A stretch of DNA of 26,260 bases from positions 1-26,260 of the IMG/VR virus record IMGVR_UViG_3300046010_013188, one strand, 5' to 3'. How positions within the stretch are numbered: position 1 is the first letter of the stretch; every line of letters begins with the position of its first letter. The stretch comes from a virus. A program made the position numbers and the translations under genes. Below, in pieces: positions 4,704-20,415 of the stretch. The notes below the pieces were generated by a model. The model had not been told where the DNA came from, searched no databases, and saw only the letters and a program-made list of their open reading frames with translations.

Positions 4704-7700
4704 TATAACGGTAGTAGATCTAGGAACTGGAGGAGAACTCAACTCTCAAGATATTAACATTCTGGAGGGCTCATTCTCTACCTCCTTATTTACCCCAGGT
4801 AGAGATAAGGTAGAGATTACTATAACCAGCCTCAATGAAGAGCTTCTAATTAGCGATCCAGAGTTTATCCTCTACTCGGTAGAAAACGATCCCTCTCTAC
4901 AAAATACAAGCCAGATATCGACGGTAAGTATTGATGTACAAAGAGTCTTAGATTATTACGAATTCGATAGAGGAATTTTAAACTTAAAGTTTGACTTTTA
5001 TACCCCCCTATTCTTTACTAGTGAAAATAATAAGTTCTATATCTCTGAGATATCAACAGATAGAACTGAAGCTAGATTAGATAGTCTATCTCTAGACGAT
5101 CCTACAGTACTAAAGAGCGTTCAAGATTTTATCGATGAGATAAATACTAGCGCTACTATAGTCTACTTCTACTTAAACTTCGGAGGAAACGAACTTATTC
5201 CTGCAGTTAACCTTATACTAGATAACGGCTCTATTGTTGTTAAGTTATACGAAACTCTACCGGCCGAGTATGAGTTAAAGAATACTTTCTTCTTAACTCA
5301 AAAGATAGCTGAACCGGTTAATTATCAAGTAACAATCTCTGATACCGTAGTTGACGATCTAGAACCTGTTTTCAATCTAAAAGGACCTAACCTTAATTTA
5401 GATATTAAAAACCAGATAGGAGTAACAAGTAACTACTTCAACGCAAGCAACTTACTAGCAACTACTCTAACAAGCTCATTCTCGCAATTAAGCTCACTGT
5501 TGGTTGATAAAGGAGTAGAGGTAAATATAGATTACACCGACTACTCAAACTTTGTACATTATTCTTCAGCAAGACAGAGAGTCTTAAACTTCTATCAGAA
5601 GGTTTCGTTGCTTGAAGACTACCAAAACGAACTAGGACGGACGGTCTTTAATGTTACAGGAAGCACTTCGTCTTCTTTATTTGTTAGTCAATCTAAGGTA
5701 ATTATTCAAAATAAGATTAATGAGATTAAGACTAATCTAGATGGTTACGAATATTTTCTCTACTACGAAAGCGGATCAAAAGCATGGCCAAAAACAACCT
5801 CTACCCAACCCTACACTCTCGCCGGTACAGGAAGTGCTGCGGTAATCAGCTGGATAGGAAGCTCCAATTCAGCATCACCAGCATATGGAGGGCAGCTATA
5901 CACCGGATCTTTATACGACGAACTAAACAAGGATAACTTACTTTTTACCGTACCTGAGTACCTGAGAGAAGATAGTGCTAACCTACCCTACGAGCTGTTT
6001 ATTAGCATGATAGGTCAGCATTTTGATAATCTATGGATATATTCAAAAGGAATTACCGACAGATTAGATTCAGATAACAGACCTGACTTCGGAGCTCCTA
6101 AAGCTTTGATGGGTGATATTTTAAGATCATTTGGACTTAAAGTTTATACCAATCAATTCTCAGGCGATGATCTATATTCTTCATTAACGGGTTTTTCAAT
6201 TTCAGGTTCAGGAACACCCAGCACAGGTAGTGAAAAAATTACTTCCTACGTTACTGCTTCAACCTTTATCCCTGCAAGTGATATAACAGTTGAAGTTTAT
6301 AAGAGACTATACCACAATCTACCTTATCTCCTTAAGAAAAAAGGAACGGTAGAAGGAGTAAGAGCTCTAATCAATATTTACGGAATACCAGATACTATCC
6401 TTAGAATCAATGAGTTCGGAGGAAAAGATAAGGTAAATACTAACGATTTTGATAATTACCAGCAAGTCTATAACCTAGCATATTTTACAGAAGATAGCGG
6501 CTTTGTAAACTCACCCTTTATAACCCCTTCATGGAACAGTACTAACGTACCAAATACAGTATCGGTAAGATTTAAACCCGTTAACAGCAATAGCCTTCTT
6601 ACACAACGCTCCCAATCTCTATGGGATGTAGAAACCTCTAGCACTCCTACTCTAGGTTTAGTTTTAGAGTACTCAGGAACAGGTAATATATCAGGAAGCT
6701 TTAGCGGATCCATAGCAACGACGGGCTCTGAATTCACGACCCTTAAGTTCTATGCAAATTCAACTACTTCAGCTAGTATAAACTTACCTATAAATAACGG
6801 TGAATGGTGGACAGCAGTAGTATCAAAAGTAGGAACAACCTGGTATCTATACGCAGGATGCAATCTATACAACGGGTATACTGGAACTCTTCCAGGATTT
6901 TATGCTTCAAGTTCAGTTACTGGTAATGATACAGTTTATACAGGTGGAGAGAATATTTTCTTCCCTTCAAATACAAGACAGCAAGTTACACTAGGCGGTA
7001 AATTATACAATCCGTTTACCGGTTATTATCAAGAAATAAAGTACTACGGAGTAGGTATTAGCGAAAGCATAGCTAGATCGTTGATTGCTAACCCTTCGTC
7101 AATTGAGGGAAATAATATATCATCATCCTACCAGCAATTAGCAGCAAGACTTCCTTTAGGTAGTGAATTATATACCGGATCAATATCCGTTCATCCAGCA
7201 GTATCAGGATCGGGAGTTAAACAAAATTCCTTCACTTCCAATAGCAACTTTACCATTACCGCTGGAGAGTGGGTTAATAACGAAGAAACTTTCTTCTTAG
7301 AAGAACCTATTGCAGGTATAAAAAACAGAGTCCCTGATAAGATCAGATCAGTGACTCCTACTTTAGTAGACGGGAACACCTTATCAAGCTATATCAGCAT
7401 TCAAAAAGATAACGATGAAACTGAAACTTATACTCGAGATATAAACTACGTTGAAGTTGCATTCTCACCCACCAATGAGATAAACGACGATATAGTAGCT
7501 CAATTGGGTTTCTTTAATATAGGAGAGTTTATCGGAGACCCAAGACATCAGTCAGCATCCTCCTATAACGACCTTACTCCTTTAAGAGAAGATTATTTTA
7601 AAAAGTACGTTGATAATTACGATTTTAACGACTACATCAGAATACTAAAGTACTTTGATAATACTTTATTTAAGCTGGTTAAAGATTTTGCTCCTGCTAG

Positions 7701-11825: not shown

Positions 11826-13070
11826 ATGAGTGCTTACAAACAATTTCTAGCATCAGACGTAATAGTCACTCCGTTTGAGGTAAATAAAAATTTTACTTTC
11901 AAGCAGAGTGAATTTTCTGGTATTGGAATTGATAGATTCTTAGGTACTTCAGGATCCTTTATAAGCAATAAAACAGTAACCGGTACTCTAAGTTCTGAGT
12001 ATCAGGTACTTGTTTATAGCTCAATAAAAGAGCTCTACTACTCCAACTTCTTATCAAGCTCAGTAGGAGATCCTGCTCAAGTAACTACAGTTATTCCGGG
12101 AGTAAACAGAGACTCTGATAGGTTAACAGGTCCTAATCAATCAACAGGCTATTATAATTACCTACAAACCTCTCTCTCCCAGTCAAGATTCTTCTCAACA
12201 GGATCAGGAGCAGAGGTAGCAGTATTTTCTATCCCTAGCTCTATCTTTGGAACTTTTATTAAACCCGGATCTTTTGTATTTGATTATTCATCTAGCTTTA
12301 AAGCATACGATGACCAGGAAGGTAATTTATATAGTTCAGCTAGTTTTGCTTGGACACAAAGCGCAGGTTTATTCAACCAGACCATAACTGCCTCTGCAAG
12401 TTCAATAGTTAACCCTAGTGAAATTGGGTTTACTTCCCCCATTACCCTACCTTCAGGCTATACTTTTATATCAGCATCTTGGGCTAGCGGGAGTGTCAAT
12501 TCCCCTTTTAACGAAATTTCCATTGCCACTTTTGTACCGGTTATAAGTGCTAGTCAGGGTATATCAGTTAGTAGTAATAAATTATCTTCAGATCAGAGTA
12601 TTATAGATTTTCAAGATAATGCTACACCATTCCCTTCAGATATTTATTTATATTTTCAATCGGGGTCTTTAGTTACCACTAGTGGCAGTATATCAGCTAA
12701 TCAAAATGTAGGTAATATAATTTATCAACACGGTATTGCGATTTTTACAAATCAAAATTTACCTCTATCAAGCATAACAACGTTAGCTAATACAACATGC
12801 TCGTTTCAATCTACAGTTACTATATATGAAACTCAGTATAAATGTACTATATCTGAAAACGAATCGAACTACTCCCTCAACCCCTCCCTCAACGCAGGAT
12901 TAGACGGACTCCTGAATACCTTTGCAACAGCATCTTTCTTTTCACCCTACATTACAACAGTAGGACTTTATAATGATGAACAGGAACTAGTAGCAGTAGC
13001 TAAACTAGCACAACCAGTACCTACTTCTGCAACCACAGATATGAGTATCATCGTAAACTTAGATATGTAA
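11826..13070 (+). CDS. Virion-type protein, paralogue of the previous gene (copy 2)
   Basis: The 414-residue protein shares its C-terminal block with the preceding gene (SPYITTVGLYNDEQELVAVA followed by KLAQPVP and a final NLDM) and has a comparable N-terminal layout (YKQFLASDVIVTPFEVNKNF). The middle, about residues 115-330, is longer and different, with Ser/Gly-rich strands and two Cys near residues 320 and 338. This pattern, conserved ends with a variable middle, is typical of receptor-facing or decorating proteins. It ends TAATG, sharing a base with the GIY-YIG-like gene. It closes the run of structural genes. Confidence 0.7.
   Translation: MSAYKQFLASDVIVTPFEVNKNFTFKQSEFSGIGIDRFLGTSGSFISNKTVTGTLSSEYQVLVYSSIKELYYSNFLSSSVGDPAQVTTVIPGVNRDSDRLTGPNQSTGYYNYLQTSLSQSRFFSTGSGAEVAVFSIPSSIFGTFIKPGSFVFDYSSSFKAYDDQEGNLYSSASFAWTQSAGLFNQTITASASSIVNPSEIGFTSPITLPSGYTFISASWASGSVNSPFNEISIATFVPVISASQGISVSSNKLSSDQSIIDFQDNATPFPSDIYLYFQSGSLVTTSGSISANQNVGNIIYQHGIAIFTNQNLPLSSITTLANTTCSFQSTVTIYETQYKCTISENESNYSLNPSLNAGLDGLLNTFATASFFSPYITTVGLYNDEQELVAVAKLAQPVPTSATTDMSIIVNLDM
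12946..13017 (+). repeat. Diverged direct repeat, copy 2
   Basis: This stretch encodes PYITTVGLYNDEQELVAVAK and the following LAQP, the counterpart of 11698-11769. The copies differ mainly at third positions and in the ND-x-x-x-L part, which fits an old tandem duplication under selection rather than recent recombination. Confidence 0.7.
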
Positions 13071-13534
13071 TGATCACTCAAGATCCTTGGACCTATAAAG
13101 GTAGATTTATAACCCAACTTTTAGATATACCACCTAATACTTTTGGCTTTGTATACCAGATAACTAACAATAAAACCAATAAAAAATATATTGGTAGAAA
13201 AGTTTTATATTTTGAAAGAAATAAAAAGCTTACTCAAAAGGAATTAGCTGAACTAACAGGTAAAGGAAGAAAGCCTACTACTAAAAAAGTAGTAACCGAA
13301 AGCGATTGGAAGGACTATTTCGGTTCTAATAAAGAATTTATTGAAACAGTAAAGGCTCAAGGTCGAGGTGAATTTAGTAGAGAGATATTGGAGTTTGCTC
13401 CTAACAGAAAACTTCTCACCTACTATGAATGTAAGTATATTTTTAAGTTCGGAGCAATTGAACCTAGCAGCCTATACTACAACGATAATATTTTAGGTAA
13501 ATTTTACAGAAAAGACTTTCCCAATGAAGCTTAA
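13070..13534 (+). CDS. GIY-YIG-like nuclease
   Basis: The 154-residue protein carries the two diagnostic strands of the GIY-YIG fold: G26-F-V-Y29 and, after a hairpin, K39-Y40-I41-G42-R43-K44. A candidate metal-binding Glu sits at E120 in a helix (LLTYYECKYIF), where the family's catalytic glutamate lies. Residues 76-92 hold a DWKDYFGSNKEFIE segment, common in phage-encoded members. Family members cut DNA using a divalent metal. The protein is a single compact domain with no visible DNA-binding repeat, so a homing endonuclease of the Seg type is possible but not shown; repair or genome-processing roles are alternatives. It overlaps the kinase-like gene by eleven bases. Confidence 0.7.
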   Translation: MITQDPWTYKGRFITQLLDIPPNTFGFVYQITNNKTNKKYIGRKVLYFERNKKLTQKELAELTGKGRKPTTKKVVTESDWKDYFGSNKEFIETVKAQGRGEFSREILEFAPNRKLLTYYECKYIFKFGAIEPSSLYYNDNILGKFYRKDFPNEA

Positions 13535-14042
13535 GGATATTATACTAGAGAATAGTAAAGACAAAAAATACTTAGCTCTTGTAAATGCTTTAAGAGAAAA
13601 GTATAATACAACTGACTTAGGAGTAGGTAGCTTTGGTGTTGCTTTTGATCTTGGAGAAGGAAAAGCTTTAAAAGTCACTACTGATAGTTATGAGATAGAT
13701 CATGCTATAAAGCTTAAAGGGCACTCCTCACCTTTTATTATTCCTATTTTAGGGGTAAAAAGATTTAGCGAGTCATTAGGAGTTATTTACACTAAGGTTG
13801 CCGATCCTATCTCCGATCAAGAGAAGATTCAGATAAAGGAAATAGAAGAGTCTGCTGAAGATTTTCTAAGCCGAGGAGAAGACAAGGAGCTTAACAAGTT
13901 TACTCAAAATATAGAGCTAGTAAAACTCGTTAAAGGCTTAAAATCAGCCTTCAATAGTGTCGGAATATCAGGAGATGAAATCGACTGGTCTCCTGAAAAC
14001 ATAATGAGGTATAAAGGTAATTATGTATTAGTTGACATTTAG
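13524..14042 (+). CDS. Minimal protein-kinase-like protein with capsid-targeting-like leader
   Basis: The 172-residue protein has a recognisable kinase core. There is a glycine loop G33-V-G35-S-F-G38-V-A, a following ALKVT with K50 in the position of the ATP-binding lysine, and a catalytic-loop-like D154-W-S-P-E-N159 matching the D-x-x-x-x-N of 'HRDLKPEN'. A hydrophobic strand then ends in D171, matching the DFG aspartate. The chain stops one residue after that Asp, so activation segment, APE motif and C-lobe helices are absent. The preceding His/Arg of the catalytic loop are not conserved. The N-terminus, MKLKDIILENSK, looks like a short cleavable head-targeting leader. It may phosphorylate a small molecule or protein, or be an inactive ATP-binding domain. 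Confidence 0.65.
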   Translation: MKLKDIILENSKDKKYLALVNALREKYNTTDLGVGSFGVAFDLGEGKALKVTTDSYEIDHAIKLKGHSSPFIIPILGVKRFSESLGVIYTKVADPISDQEKIQIKEIEESAEDFLSRGEDKELNKFTQNIELVKLVKGLKSAFNSVGISGDEIDWSPENIMRYKGNYVLVDI

Positions 14043-14083: not shown

Positions 14084-15010
14084 GTGGAAAATCTCGTCAT
14101 ACTAAATTATCTAGAAAAACTTTTAGGTAAGTCTCATAAAAGAGCTAGAGAGAACTACGCATTTTATTGTAGTTTCTGCAACCACCACAAACCAAAGCTT
14201 GAGGTAAACCTTCATACCAATGAAAAGGGAGAGAATCCTTGGGAGTGTTGGGTATGTAATACTAAGGGAAGAACCATTAGATCATTACTTAAGCAACTTA
14301 AGATTGATCAAACCATTATCTCTGAGGTTACCAAGCACATTCTAAAGGGAAGTACTGACGCTCATATTTCCTTTAGTCTTGAATTACCTAAAGGGTTTAG
14401 ACTCTTAAGCGAACCTAGCGGTTCTATTATTATCAACAGAGCTAGAAAGTACCTCTATAATCGAGGGTTAACCGATAACGACTTTATAAAATACAACATA
14501 GGATACTGTCCTTCAGGGGAATATGCTGACAGAATTATAGTACCCAGTTATGATGAGAGAGGAACGTTAAACTACTTCGTAGGAAGAAGCGTTAACCCTG
14601 ATACTTCTTTTAAGTATAAAAACCCAAGCGTTTCAAAAGACGTTATAGGGTTTGAAGCTTTTATAAACTGGGATGTACCTGTTGTACTATGTGAAGGTGT
14701 ATTTGACGCTATGGCTATAAAACGTAACGCTATACCTTTATTAGGAAAAACAATGAGTCAAAGTTTATTAAGAAAACTTGCTCTAAACAAGGTAAAAGAT
14801 GTTTATATAGCATTAGATAGAGATGCTCTGAAAAGCGCTCTAACCATTTCAGATCAATTGCTCTCCATGGGTAAGAGGGTTTACCTGGTTGATATGGCTG
14901 ATAAAGATCCTAGCTCGATGGGATTCAAAGCGTTTACCCAACATATACAAACAGCTGACGAAATAAATTTAAGTAAAATCATGGAATACAAACTATACCA
15001 ACTATGCTAG
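14084..15010 (+). CDS. DNA primase, zinc-ribbon plus TOPRIM
   Basis: The 308-residue protein has the bacterial/phage primase layout. An N-terminal zinc ribbon has C29, C32, C55 and C58. A linker domain follows (residues about 100-190) with RKYLYNRGLTDNDF and ADRIIVPSYDERGTLNYFVG. The TOPRIM domain has E204 in LCEGVFDAMA, a D245-R-D247 acidic pair in IALDRDA, and a DKDPSSMG segment near residue 275. It should make RNA primers for lagging-strand synthesis at the phage replisome; the partner helicase is not in this window. The start is a GTG at 14084, because no in-frame ATG lies close before the zinc ribbon. The gene overlaps the nuclease gene by seven bases. Confidence 0.85.
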   Translation: MENLVILNYLEKLLGKSHKRARENYAFYCSFCNHHKPKLEVNLHTNEKGENPWECWVCNTKGRTIRSLLKQLKIDQTIISEVTKHILKGSTDAHISFSLELPKGFRLLSEPSGSIIINRARKYLYNRGLTDNDFIKYNIGYCPSGEYADRIIVPSYDERGTLNYFVGRSVNPDTSFKYKNPSVSKDVIGFEAFINWDVPVVLCEGVFDAMAIKRNAIPLLGKTMSQSLLRKLALNKVKDVYIALDRDALKSALTISDQLLSMGKRVYLVDMADKDPSSMGFKAFTQHIQTADEINLSKIMEYKLYQLC

Positions 15011-15789
15011 TAAAGGGCTCAAATATATTAAAAGAACATAAACTTAAGAATTTAGACTTTCAACCTAAATTACAGCAAATTAACTTTTTAGACCGTCGGG
15101 TTTATAAGAGATCTGAGGGGAAGTACTATCCATCAGTTACAAGCATTTTACAGTACATGCCTAAGAATAAGTTTTTTGAGCAATGGATTAAAGATGTAGG
15201 GCATAATTCTGATCTCATTATGAGAAAAGCAGGTGAAGAGGGAACCGCCGTTCACAATGCCGTTGAAGATCTCCTTAAGGGAGAAGAAATTACCTGGATG
15301 GATGACTTTGGCAACGCCAAATACTCTCTAGAGGTCTGGAATATGATATTAAAAGCCTATGAATTTTTTGAAACCTATAAACCTGAAGTACTCGCATCTG
15401 AGCATTTCATTTATTCTGATGAGCATGAGTATGCTGGAACTATTGACCTTATTCTTAAGCTTGATGATTTAATTTGGTTGGTTGATATTAAGACTTCAAA
15501 CTCCATTCATAAGTCACATGAGTTGCAACTAGCTGCTTATGCAAGAGGGTGGGAAGAAACCACCGGTCAGAAAATAGATAAGACTGGAATATTATGGTTA
15601 AAGTCAGCTAAAAGAACACCTTCAAAGAAAGCAGGTTCATACCAAGGTAAAGGTTGGGAGATTATAGAGGCAGATGATACAGATAAGAACTTTGGATTCT
15701 TTAAACTTATCTATGAACTGTATAAAATGGACAACCCAACCACCGAGCCTATTTATAATAGCGTACCAACCGCTATAAAACTATCATGA
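15004..15789 (+). CDS. PD-(D/E)XK nuclease, RecB/Cas4-like
   Basis: The 261-residue protein shows the RecB-family nuclease motifs in order: H84 and E88 in GTAVHNAVED, D148 in AGTIDLI, D161-I-K163-T in WLVDIKTS, and Q175-x-x-x-Y179 in LQLAAYARG. These are the metal-binding and catalytic residues of the family. No four-Cys Fe-S cluster is visible, so it is closer to a phage exonuclease than a classic Cas4. Likely roles are DNA end processing in recombination or replication, together with the primase directly upstream. It overlaps the next gene by four bases (ATGA). Confidence 0.85.
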   Translation: MLVKGSNILKEHKLKNLDFQPKLQQINFLDRRVYKRSEGKYYPSVTSILQYMPKNKFFEQWIKDVGHNSDLIMRKAGEEGTAVHNAVEDLLKGEEITWMDDFGNAKYSLEVWNMILKAYEFFETYKPEVLASEHFIYSDEHEYAGTIDLILKLDDLIWLVDIKTSNSIHKSHELQLAAYARGWEETTGQKIDKTGILWLKSAKRTPSKKAGSYQGKGWEIIEADDTDKNFGFFKLIYELYKMDNPTTEPIYNSVPTAIKLS

Positions 15790-16424
15790 AAAACAAAGAT
15801 TTAGATGTAAATTTCCACCTAGCTATAGAAAAAGCTATAGCCTCTCTTGACTTTCCACAAGATATACAACATCTATCTGAAATAATTCAAACTAAAGACA
15901 ACCTCACAAATACCGATAAGGAGTCCCTATATCAACTTAAGGAGCGTCTGCAGGAAATTATACCCAATTCAATGACGGCGGATATTGAGGGGGATAGGAT
16001 TATAGTTCATTTTATAGACTCAACCACCGAACCTATCGATACCCCTACCGATTATACTCCCTTTATGCGAGCGATTATGGAGTATATGGAAAGCAAGGGA
16101 ATGAACGTAAAGCCCTTCCCTAAAATTACTCTTCAGGAAGATTTAGAAGAAGGAAAAAAGATACTAGGCAAAACAGCTTACTACGACCCGGAGTTAGAGG
16201 AAATAGTGCTTTATACTTCAAACAGGCATCCAAAAGATATACTAAGATCCTTCGCTCATGAGATGATACATCATATTCAGAAGCAAGAAGGTAGGATTGG
16301 AAACGGTGAGGTATCAACTACCAACATAAATGAGGATGAGCATTTACGGAAACTAGAGGAAGAAGCATACTTAAAGGGAAATATAGCCTTTAGAGAGTGG
16401 ACTGATAAAACAACTAAGGCATAA
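15786..16424 (+). CDS. HExxH zinc metallopeptidase-like protein
   Basis: The 212-residue protein contains H158-E159-M-I-H162 in SFAHEMIHHIQKQEG, the zinc-binding and catalytic motif of zincins. A downstream acidic helix (LRKLEEEAYLKGNIAF) could supply the third ligand as in gluzincins. The N-terminal 60 residues are helical and charged. Residues about 95-150 include FMRAIMEYMESKGM and LGKTAYYDPELEEIVLYTSN, which fits the pre-catalytic beta sheet. No signal peptide is visible, so it should act in the cytoplasm or inside virions. I associate this combination with environmental phages; the substrate is unknown. It lies between a DNA nuclease and a nucleotidase. Confidence 0.7.
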   Translation: MKNKDLDVNFHLAIEKAIASLDFPQDIQHLSEIIQTKDNLTNTDKESLYQLKERLQEIIPNSMTADIEGDRIIVHFIDSTTEPIDTPTDYTPFMRAIMEYMESKGMNVKPFPKITLQEDLEEGKKILGKTAYYDPELEEIVLYTSNRHPKDILRSFAHEMIHHIQKQEGRIGNGEVSTTNINEDEHLRKLEEEAYLKGNIAFREWTDKTTKA

Positions 16425-19428: not shown

Positions 19429-19656
19429 ATGAAATTAGCAAAAATTCTATTAGAAAAAACTAATCCGGAGGATAGAGTTACTCTAGATATCCCTTTATTT
19501 ATCAGATTACTGGAATATGCAAGAGAGGATGCTAAAGAGGATGTCGATCTACACTACTTAGCTGATAATGCAATCAGACTCTCAGCTGAAGGTAAAACCT
19601 TAAGTATGAATCATTATAACGATATAGTTTCAAAAAATATCAAAAAGATCAAATAA
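19429..19656 (+). CDS. Small helical protein with leader-like N-terminus
   Basis: The 75-residue protein starts MKLAKILLEKTNPEDRVTLD. The first nine residues fit a short leader ending LLE. Mature residues would include VTLDIPLFIRLLEYAREDAK and a LADNAIRLSAEGKTLSMNHY segment. I recognise this mature part as a frequent small protein of environmental myophages, often with a different N-terminal leader, but know no function. It has an A-only leader (GGAAAAAATAAAAA) and no Shine-Dalgarno. It lies in the cluster of leader-bearing genes from 19429 to 24764. Confidence 0.65.
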   Translation: MKLAKILLEKTNPEDRVTLDIPLFIRLLEYAREDAKEDVDLHYLADNAIRLSAEGKTLSMNHYNDIVSKNIKKIK

Positions 19657-19663
19657 AAACAAA

Positions 19664-19993
19664 ATGATGAAACTATTAAACCTCCTTTCCGAAGCAAAAA
19701 AAGCAAATGAAACTTTCGAGGAATTTGCTTCCACAAGAGGTGAAGGTGCTGCTAAGATAGCGTCAACAGCCCATGAAAAGGGCGGGCTAGCTCTTTTGAC
19801 TTGGCACCACTTTAAGGTCAAAGCTCCATACTACAAAAAGGCAACTGCCGGCAAGTTTGATGAAGAAGCTGCTAAAAAAGAATTTGAGAGTACCTTAAAG
19901 GGTATATCACTAGGTATGACTGCTATTGAATTCCAAAGAGAGGTAGGCCGGCTAGAGGTGCTAGGGGAGCTGCTGATTAGAGAAAAAAAATAA
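19664..19993 (+). CDS. Small conserved phage protein with capsid-targeting-like leader
   Basis: The 109-residue protein starts MMKLLNLLSEAKKANETFEE. The leader MKLLNLLSE-A closely resembles the T4 internal-protein leader MKTYQEFIAE-A, including a small residue after the Glu. The mature part has GEGAAKIASTAHEKGGLALL, then TWHHFKVKAPYYKKATAGKF and a helical tail EVGRLEVLGELLIREKK. I recognise that core as common in environmental myophages, function unknown. Two ATGs are adjacent at 19664 and 19667; either could start it. The compact, basic mature part would suit packaging with DNA. Confidence 0.7.
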   Translation: MMKLLNLLSEAKKANETFEEFASTRGEGAAKIASTAHEKGGLALLTWHHFKVKAPYYKKATAGKFDEEAAKKEFESTLKGISLGMTAIEFQREVGRLEVLGELLIREKK

Positions 19994-20001
19994 GAAGTAT
20001 T

Positions 20002-20415
20002 ATGAAACTCTCAAGACTTATAAACGAAGCGGAGGTTAAATGTCCTCCTGCAACACAGGACATCGATCTCAATCTCAAGAACAGACAGAAAGCCATTGAC
20101 GAATACGGATACGGCCCTGCTGACCCCTCCCAAAAGAACGAAAAGTTCTGGAAGAAAAAGATGGATATGTGGCAGGTCGATACTGCTGAAGAGCTGAAAA
20201 AAATGGTATGCGGTACTTGTGCTGCTTTCGATATCACGACTAAGACTCTAGACTGTATTGCAAAGGGTATCGGATCGGACATGGGTTCGGAAGATCCTTA
20301 CGATGTAATTGATGCCGGTGAGTTAGGTTACTGTAGATTTCTAAAGTTTAAATGCGCAGCCTCTAGAACTTGCGATGCTTGGGTAACAGGTGGTCCTATT
20401 AAAGATAAAGAGTAA
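20002..20415 (+). CDS. Cysteine-rich, possibly Fe-S or zinc-binding protein with leader
   Basis: The 137-residue protein begins MKLSRLINEA-EVKCPP, a leader ending INE-A. Seven cysteines are at residues 14, 70, 73, 85, 111, 118 and 124. The order C70-G-T-C73-AAF, then LGYC111RFLKFKC118 and RTC124DAW gives a compact metal-site pattern. The spacing is somewhat like high-potential iron-sulfur proteins (C-x2-C, C, C), but I cannot show that. Residues 25-60 include LKNRQKAIDEYGYGPADPSQ and a FWKKKMDMW helix. I recognise the protein as common in environmental phages with unknown role. If the leader is real, a metal protein would be carried inside the capsid. It shares its last base with the next gene (TAATG). 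Confidence 0.65.
   Translation: MKLSRLINEAEVKCPPATQDIDLNLKNRQKAIDEYGYGPADPSQKNEKFWKKKMDMWQVDTAEELKKMVCGTCAAFDITTKTLDCIAKGIGSDMGSEDPYDVIDAGELGYCRFLKFKCAASRTCDAWVTGGPIKDKE

Follow-up and report, generated by a model that had tools for sequence, protein, structure and literature searches.

The locus analysed here raises the question of whether a phage protein that carries the nucleotide-site residues of kinases, and ends where the DFG motif should be, is the product of a damaged gene or a complete one, and of what it would do for the phage. It lies in a viral DNA of 26,260 nucleotides (IMG/VR record IMGVR_UViG_3300046010_013188), referred to below as the window. A prediction made from the sequence alone had described a kinase-like domain of about 160 residues. 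The kinase-like ORF was confirmed, but its actual length is 172 aa. Translation placed G33, G35, G38, K50, D154, N159 and D171 each at the number that the original prediction had given them, and the chain ends, as claimed, one residue past the DFG-type Asp (...LVD171-I172-stop). The spacing D154-x4-N159-x11-D171 is kinase-like, and the first ten residues are MKLKDIILEN. The features of the locus and of the related loci are listed in Table 1.

Table 1. Features of the mini-kinase locus and of related loci (positions without prefix refer to the window; those with an L prefix refer to other loci).
Feature	Location	Strand	Remarks
SegE-like GIY-YIG endonuclease gene, upstream	13070..13534	+	PF19835, E 1.6e-27
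Mini-kinase ORF	13524..14042	+	172 aa plus stop; 11-base overlap with the upstream GIY-YIG ORF
Leader MKLKDIILE (residues 1-9), capsid-targeting-like	13524..13550	+	IxE site, compatible with a cut of T4 gp21 type
Glycine-rich loop G33-V-G35-S-F-G38	13620..13637	+	G35 and G38 invariant in the 7-row alignment A7
Beta-3 Lys, K50	13671..13673	+	Invariant in 20 immuto-type sequences and in A7
Candidate helix-C Glu, E57, signature K-x-T-x-D-x-x-E	13692..13694	+	Invariant in A7; putative role
Catalytic-loop-like D154-W-S-P-E-N159	13983..14000	+	From translation; N invariant in the family
DFG-type Asp, D171 (penultimate residue before the stop)	14034..14036	+	27/27 distinct proteins
DnaG-type primase gene, downstream	14084..15010	+	PF08275, E 6.1e-8
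ORF with leader MKLAKILLE	19429..19656	+	Strict motif
ORF with leader MMKLLNLLSE	19664..19993	+	Strict motif
ORF with leader MKLSRLINE	20002..20415	+	Strict motif
Broken mini-kinase copies	L032 about 5001-5438; L036 about 5001-5436
Body of gp175, with two leaders	L003:4908-5483; L011:2274-2861; L026:5559-6143; L036:5557-6141
LR756508 short kinase-like ORF and neighbour ORF	L071:541-1323 and 1324-1977

A tblastn search of 50,697 phage records with the window protein returned four records only, all of them Flavobacterium phage immuto (E 5e-3). The homologue in this phage, gp177 (QQO92095.1, 146 aa, annotated as a hypothetical protein), is encoded upstream of the primase as in the window, and it is a true relative, although it is 26 residues shorter and lacks the D at position -5 from the catalytic-loop Asn. 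With gp177 as query, 32 loci were found in IMG/VR; an alignment search added seven more, and a further search repeated the same loci. Together with two window-type loci and immuto itself these gave 42 loci. Identical proteins and two broken copies (L032 and L036) were left out, and the resulting 27 distinct proteins (26 loci plus the window) range from 143 to 172 aa. Profile comparison established the homology of the window type to the immuto family (hhalign E 4.8e-12 over 100 columns). MAFFT misplaced the C-termini of window-type sequences against those of the immuto type, and in A7 alone did the catalytic-loop Asn line up across its 7 rows.

Pfam, NCBIfam and PADLOC assigned no family to the window protein, with no Pfam match above cut-off. 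It matched phrog_34018 (E 7.7e-4), a group for which no function is given and which did not turn up in any of the eight phage records tried. The family was not found in the three phages RaK2, Lacusarx and Presley (alignment A3 search), and a P0003-based scan of viral contigs gave no relative. A cellular origin was considered and rejected, since two pattern scans of a genome collection of 84,980 species gave no cellular relative; to judge from these searches, the family is so far known only from phages. The uncultured megaphage LR756508 (484 kb) encodes a short kinase-like ORF of 217 aa (match E 0.04; hhalign 1.2e-4), with GTHLDN where D-x4-N would be expected. The ORF adjoining it resembles an ADP-ribosyltransferase by eye, a guess to which Pfam gave no support.

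The short end turned out to be general. In every one of the 27 distinct intact proteins, a single residue follows the DFG-type Asp before the stop. Among the first 35 loci, 33 were intact and all of these end in this way, as do the seven later loci. In L032 and L036 (2 of the 42 loci) the gene is interrupted by an internal stop or a frame break, which could be either a sequencing error or a real loss, and even there the 3' ends still read '...IDV'. The window gene and that of its nearest relative, L002, whose protein is 97% identical, differ by 14 synonymous and 6 non-synonymous changes (dN 0.015, dS 0.143, dN/dS 0.104). For 105 immuto-type pairs the median dN/dS was 0.22 and the maximum 0.42. 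The early stop is a trait of the whole family, which is under purifying selection. A truncation by frameshift or assembly was therefore rejected, given the common end in 27/27 proteins, the purifying selection and the like ending of the two broken copies. The case that had been named as refuting the original prediction, a missing C-lobe encoded in another frame downstream, is excluded because only 41 bp separate the mini-kinase stop from the primase start codon and because all 27 proteins end at the same point. The canonical domain of Pfam PF00069, with its activation segment and helices F to I, is thus absent throughout the family, since the chain stops after the DFG Asp in 27/27 members.

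Structure prediction, suggested as a check with the original prediction, gave kinase folds for both proteins modelled. The best model of immuto gp177 (20 sequences) had a pLDDT of 84.6 and a pTM of 0.78; three of the five models were weaker (pLDDT 61, 50 and 44). In it a kinase N-lobe with its strands and its helix is followed by a further helix (residues 105-115) and, at the end, by two short strands. A Foldseek comparison with the PDB had protein kinases as its top matches (E 3.5e-5), and all 50 matches listed were kinases, pseudokinases or complexes containing one; a second structural comparison gave best Z values of 9 to 10 over 108-120 residues (rmsd 2.9-3.8). The last residue of gp177, number 146, falls on residue 146 of CDK2, the Phe of its DFG motif, and the spacing from N132 to D145 of gp177 is that of CDK2 as well.

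The model of the window protein (17 rows, of which 15 were N-terminal parts) reached a pLDDT of 68 and was confident in the N-lobe only, its C-terminal half being unsure (pLDDT blocks of 27-73 from residue 91 on). Its PDB matches were APH(4)-Ia and protein kinases, with a best Z of 8.2; the best was APH(4)-Ia (E 3.3e-4), whose matches cover 84 to 130 alignment columns. Both models, together with the sequence, have the five-strand N-lobe, helix C, Gly loop and beta-3 Lys of a protein-kinase-like fold, and the position of E57 falls within helix 55-64 in each of them. For a substrate C-lobe of its own, as in the small kinases APH or HipA, the chain has no residues left. Computation therefore shows, at the level of predicted models, a kinase N-lobe followed by a minimal piece of C-lobe and a stop at the DFG position. 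The absence of the activation segment and of all beyond it agrees with the original prediction, which went too far in taking the whole C-lobe to be missing: the immuto model retains the catalytic-loop region along with helix 105-115 and two short strands. A kinase of canonical type that lacked helix F and the activation segment would be hard to hold together.

Conservation in the active site was uneven. In the 20 immuto-type sequences G36, G39, K50, E57, N132 and D145 are invariant and G34 nearly so. The window type, the immuto type and the 217-aa ORF of LR756508 have in common the K, T, D and E of the signature K-x-T-x-D-x-x-E as well as the Asn and the final Asp. Position -5 from the catalytic-loop Asn, where the catalytic Asp would stand, is occupied in the 27 proteins by S (20), D (2), R (2), L (1), M (1) and K (1); the two D carriers are the window protein, with D154, and the near-identical L002. 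Further upstream, D120 in the PD[LI]EG loop of the immuto type is invariant in 20/20 and might be a stand-in for the lost catalytic Asp. Since the residues for ATP and Mg are kept and the Asp at -5 is mostly lost, predicted nucleotide and Mg binding looks conserved, whereas canonical catalysis does not. The alternative originally left between a mini-kinase and a pseudokinase thus leans, for the relatives, to the latter, because the catalytic Asp is found in two members only. The window protein, having D154, would be the member most likely to phosphorylate.

The N-terminal sequence MKLKDIILE-N had been taken for a head-targeting-type leader, and several observations agree with this. In 25/27 members an [LI]xE has its Glu at residue 9 or 10, most of the immuto type having L or I at 8 and E at 10; the remaining two, L066 and L067, have an uncertain start and LLKE nearby. 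According to a passage of PMC9026906, T4 IPIII requires no more than its first 10 residues to be targeted to the capsid, and residues 8 and 10 are important for its cleavage. Of the 32 window ORFs, 4 carry the strict motif M[KR]L...[LIV]xE: the kinase gene and three ORFs unrelated to it. The mean in shuffles was 0.04, and none out of 10000 reached 4, a figure that is optimistic because the motif was defined after the leaders had been seen. Among immuto genes it was present in 0/61 earlier and 1/54 late ones, and a cruder leader count gave no significant enrichment in this phage (9/58 late and middle genes vs 4/61 earlier ones; Fisher p 0.15). The short kinase-like ORF of LR756508 begins with MVKLKDLLSE, and the one adjoining it with MRLKSVIEE.

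Stronger support than that of the motif counts came from the exchange of leaders. The body of gp175 is headed by MKKSELVKLIKEEL in immuto and by M[ED]N(T)FDLKKFLVENKLT in L011, L026 and L036, and the FDLKKFLVENKLT leader also heads several other, unrelated bodies. The interval between the mini-kinase gene and the primase varies among loci in length and content, and the genes within it often bear the swapped leader. Judged by this arrangement, the mini-kinase locus is a putative modular island of leaders and cargo in which leaders are exchanged between bodies. The gene order around it is stable: the GIY-YIG gene lies upstream in 40/42 loci, the primase downstream in 40/42, and both in 38/42, with early-ending contigs explaining at least some of the missing neighbours. 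The locus sits among late genes, past the tail genes and beside other leader-bearing genes. Immuto encodes a gp21-type prohead protease (Peptidase_S77, E 8.9e-35) and a Gp23 capsid protein (E 6.3e-84), and therefore T4-type maturation is available in this sister phage; the 26 kb window is a fragment that does not include the protease region.

Some additional observations were made on neighbouring genes. The GIY-YIG gene of the window matches phrog_447, labelled 'NAD synthetase', and its immuto homologue is annotated likewise; this label looks wrong, because Pfam gives SegE GIY-YIG. The window ORF at 15786-16424, in the same gene cluster, has a zinc-metallopeptidase-like HEMIHH motif with a weak Pfam match (DUF6782, putative metallopeptidase, E 0.066). 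The leader-tagged immuto proteins gp178 and gp175 (L003:6420-6968 and 4908-5483), encoded near the mini-kinase, contain glycine-rich hydrophobic stretches that look like membrane segments by eye.

Taking these data together, we lean, with some reserve, to the reading that the family is a head-packaged, nucleotide-binding mini-kinase fold, mostly pseudokinase-like, which serves as leader-tagged cargo of T4-like phages. The leader of 9-10 residues would likely be a capsid-targeting sequence bringing the protein into the prohead core, and a gp21-type protease would likely cleave after [LI]xE; the mature chain would then probably ride in the head and enter the cell together with the DNA. Virion carriage and delivery at infection are what we infer from the leader and its surroundings. 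The protein may bind Mg-ATP, its Gly loop, Lys, Glu, Asn and Asp all being kept, and might, early in infection, act on a target in the host. With the catalytic Asp lost in most relatives, nucleotide-dependent binding or a non-canonical transfer is a more probable common function than ordinary protein phosphorylation, and for the family as a whole we weigh a putative non-catalytic or non-canonical role above an ordinary phosphorylating one.

How much catalysis remains is the point on which the readings divide. A non-catalytic pseudokinase, that is, an ATP-binding decoy or switch which binds and blocks a host enzyme, is a possibility to be taken seriously, if with doubt: S, L, R, M or K replaces the Asp at -5 in 25/27 proteins, whereas the Lys and the two Mg-binding residues, Asn and Asp, persist. 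Another acidic residue, however, such as the invariant D120 of the immuto type, could substitute for the missing Asp. An active phosphotransferase using D154, N159, D171 and ATP, with a host protein or small molecule as substrate held by the N-lobe or a dimer, appears rather unlikely. The kinase-like spacing of these residues and the small-molecule kinase APH(4)-Ia as best PDB match of the window model speak for it, and so does HopBF1, an injected effector with a minimal, atypical kinase fold that a passage of PMC9950578 describes as active; HopBF1 is type III secreted, and its likeness to the mini-kinase is by description only. Against it stand the loss of the activation segment and all beyond, and a D at -5 in only two proteins that are themselves 97% identical. 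We consider it distinctly unlikely that the protein is a SelO-like, virion-packaged mini-pseudokinase which, right at the onset of infection, modifies a host protein with a nucleotide or some other group, using an ATP site that lacks the catalytic Asp in a kinase fold ending at DFG; this reading is suggested by the shared residue pattern alone. SelO is a full-length protein with a C-lobe. In a table of PMC12599244 it is listed as keeping the Lys, the Asn and the DFG Asp and losing the catalytic Asp, which is the immuto-type pattern; the likeness is limited to this pattern, and AMPylation here would be speculation.

Two further readings would do without a host target or without any function. 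A head structural or core protein, for which the kinase N-lobe was borrowed in assembly, would fit the contact with the prohead core that the leader predicts and the position of the locus among late and leader-bearing genes; it would have no need of invariant nucleotide-site residues, and we regard it as very unlikely. The degenerate remnant of a full-length kinase is hardly credible. The two broken copies and the frequent loss of the catalytic Asp might be expected of a remnant, but the common end in 27/27, the fixed gene order in 38/42 loci and, above all, the purifying selection found (dN/dS 0.10 in the window pair, median 0.22 in the immuto-type pairs) disfavour it.

If the favoured reading of a head-packaged mini-kinase fold is true, the family shows how little of the kinase fold evolution can retain while preserving the nucleotide site, and the T4-like phages to which immuto is related would possess a group of leader-tagged cargo proteins, whose swappable leaders could help to predict injected effectors from sequence. 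Should the SelO-like reading be true, few enzymes with a kinase fold would be smaller than these proteins, which would then be a counterpart of T4 Alt. Because immuto has been isolated and its host is named, the claim of packaging is open to direct testing. The comparison with T4 Alt made in the original prediction stands for the logic of delivery and for nothing beyond it. T4 IPI-III and Alt share with the present proposal a short N-terminal [LI]xE leader and the logic of injected host take-over, whereas their cargo is an IP or an ADP-ribosyltransferase and that of the mini-kinase is a kinase fold with putative packaging.

Concerning other phage kinases, phrog_15752, the T7 gp0.7 family according to its PHROG description, gave a weak profile match (9/15 members, best E 0.0036, only at a relaxed limit), and phage kinase folds are among the viral structure matches listed. 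Most phage proteins named kinase among those listed matches exceed 180 aa, unlike the mini-kinases of 143-172 aa, which stop at the DFG position and bear a head-type leader. Paper searches within open-access PMC turned up no phage kinase that stops short at DFG or travels in heads, nor a family combining a stop exactly at DFG with a capsid-targeting-type leader. Short phage kinases as such are already known, many being present in the viral structure library. Klebsiella phage RaK2 has a different kinase-like ORF of 194 aa (L082:1438-2022), without a head-type leader, which continues beyond the DFG position and ends about 30 residues past its DYG.
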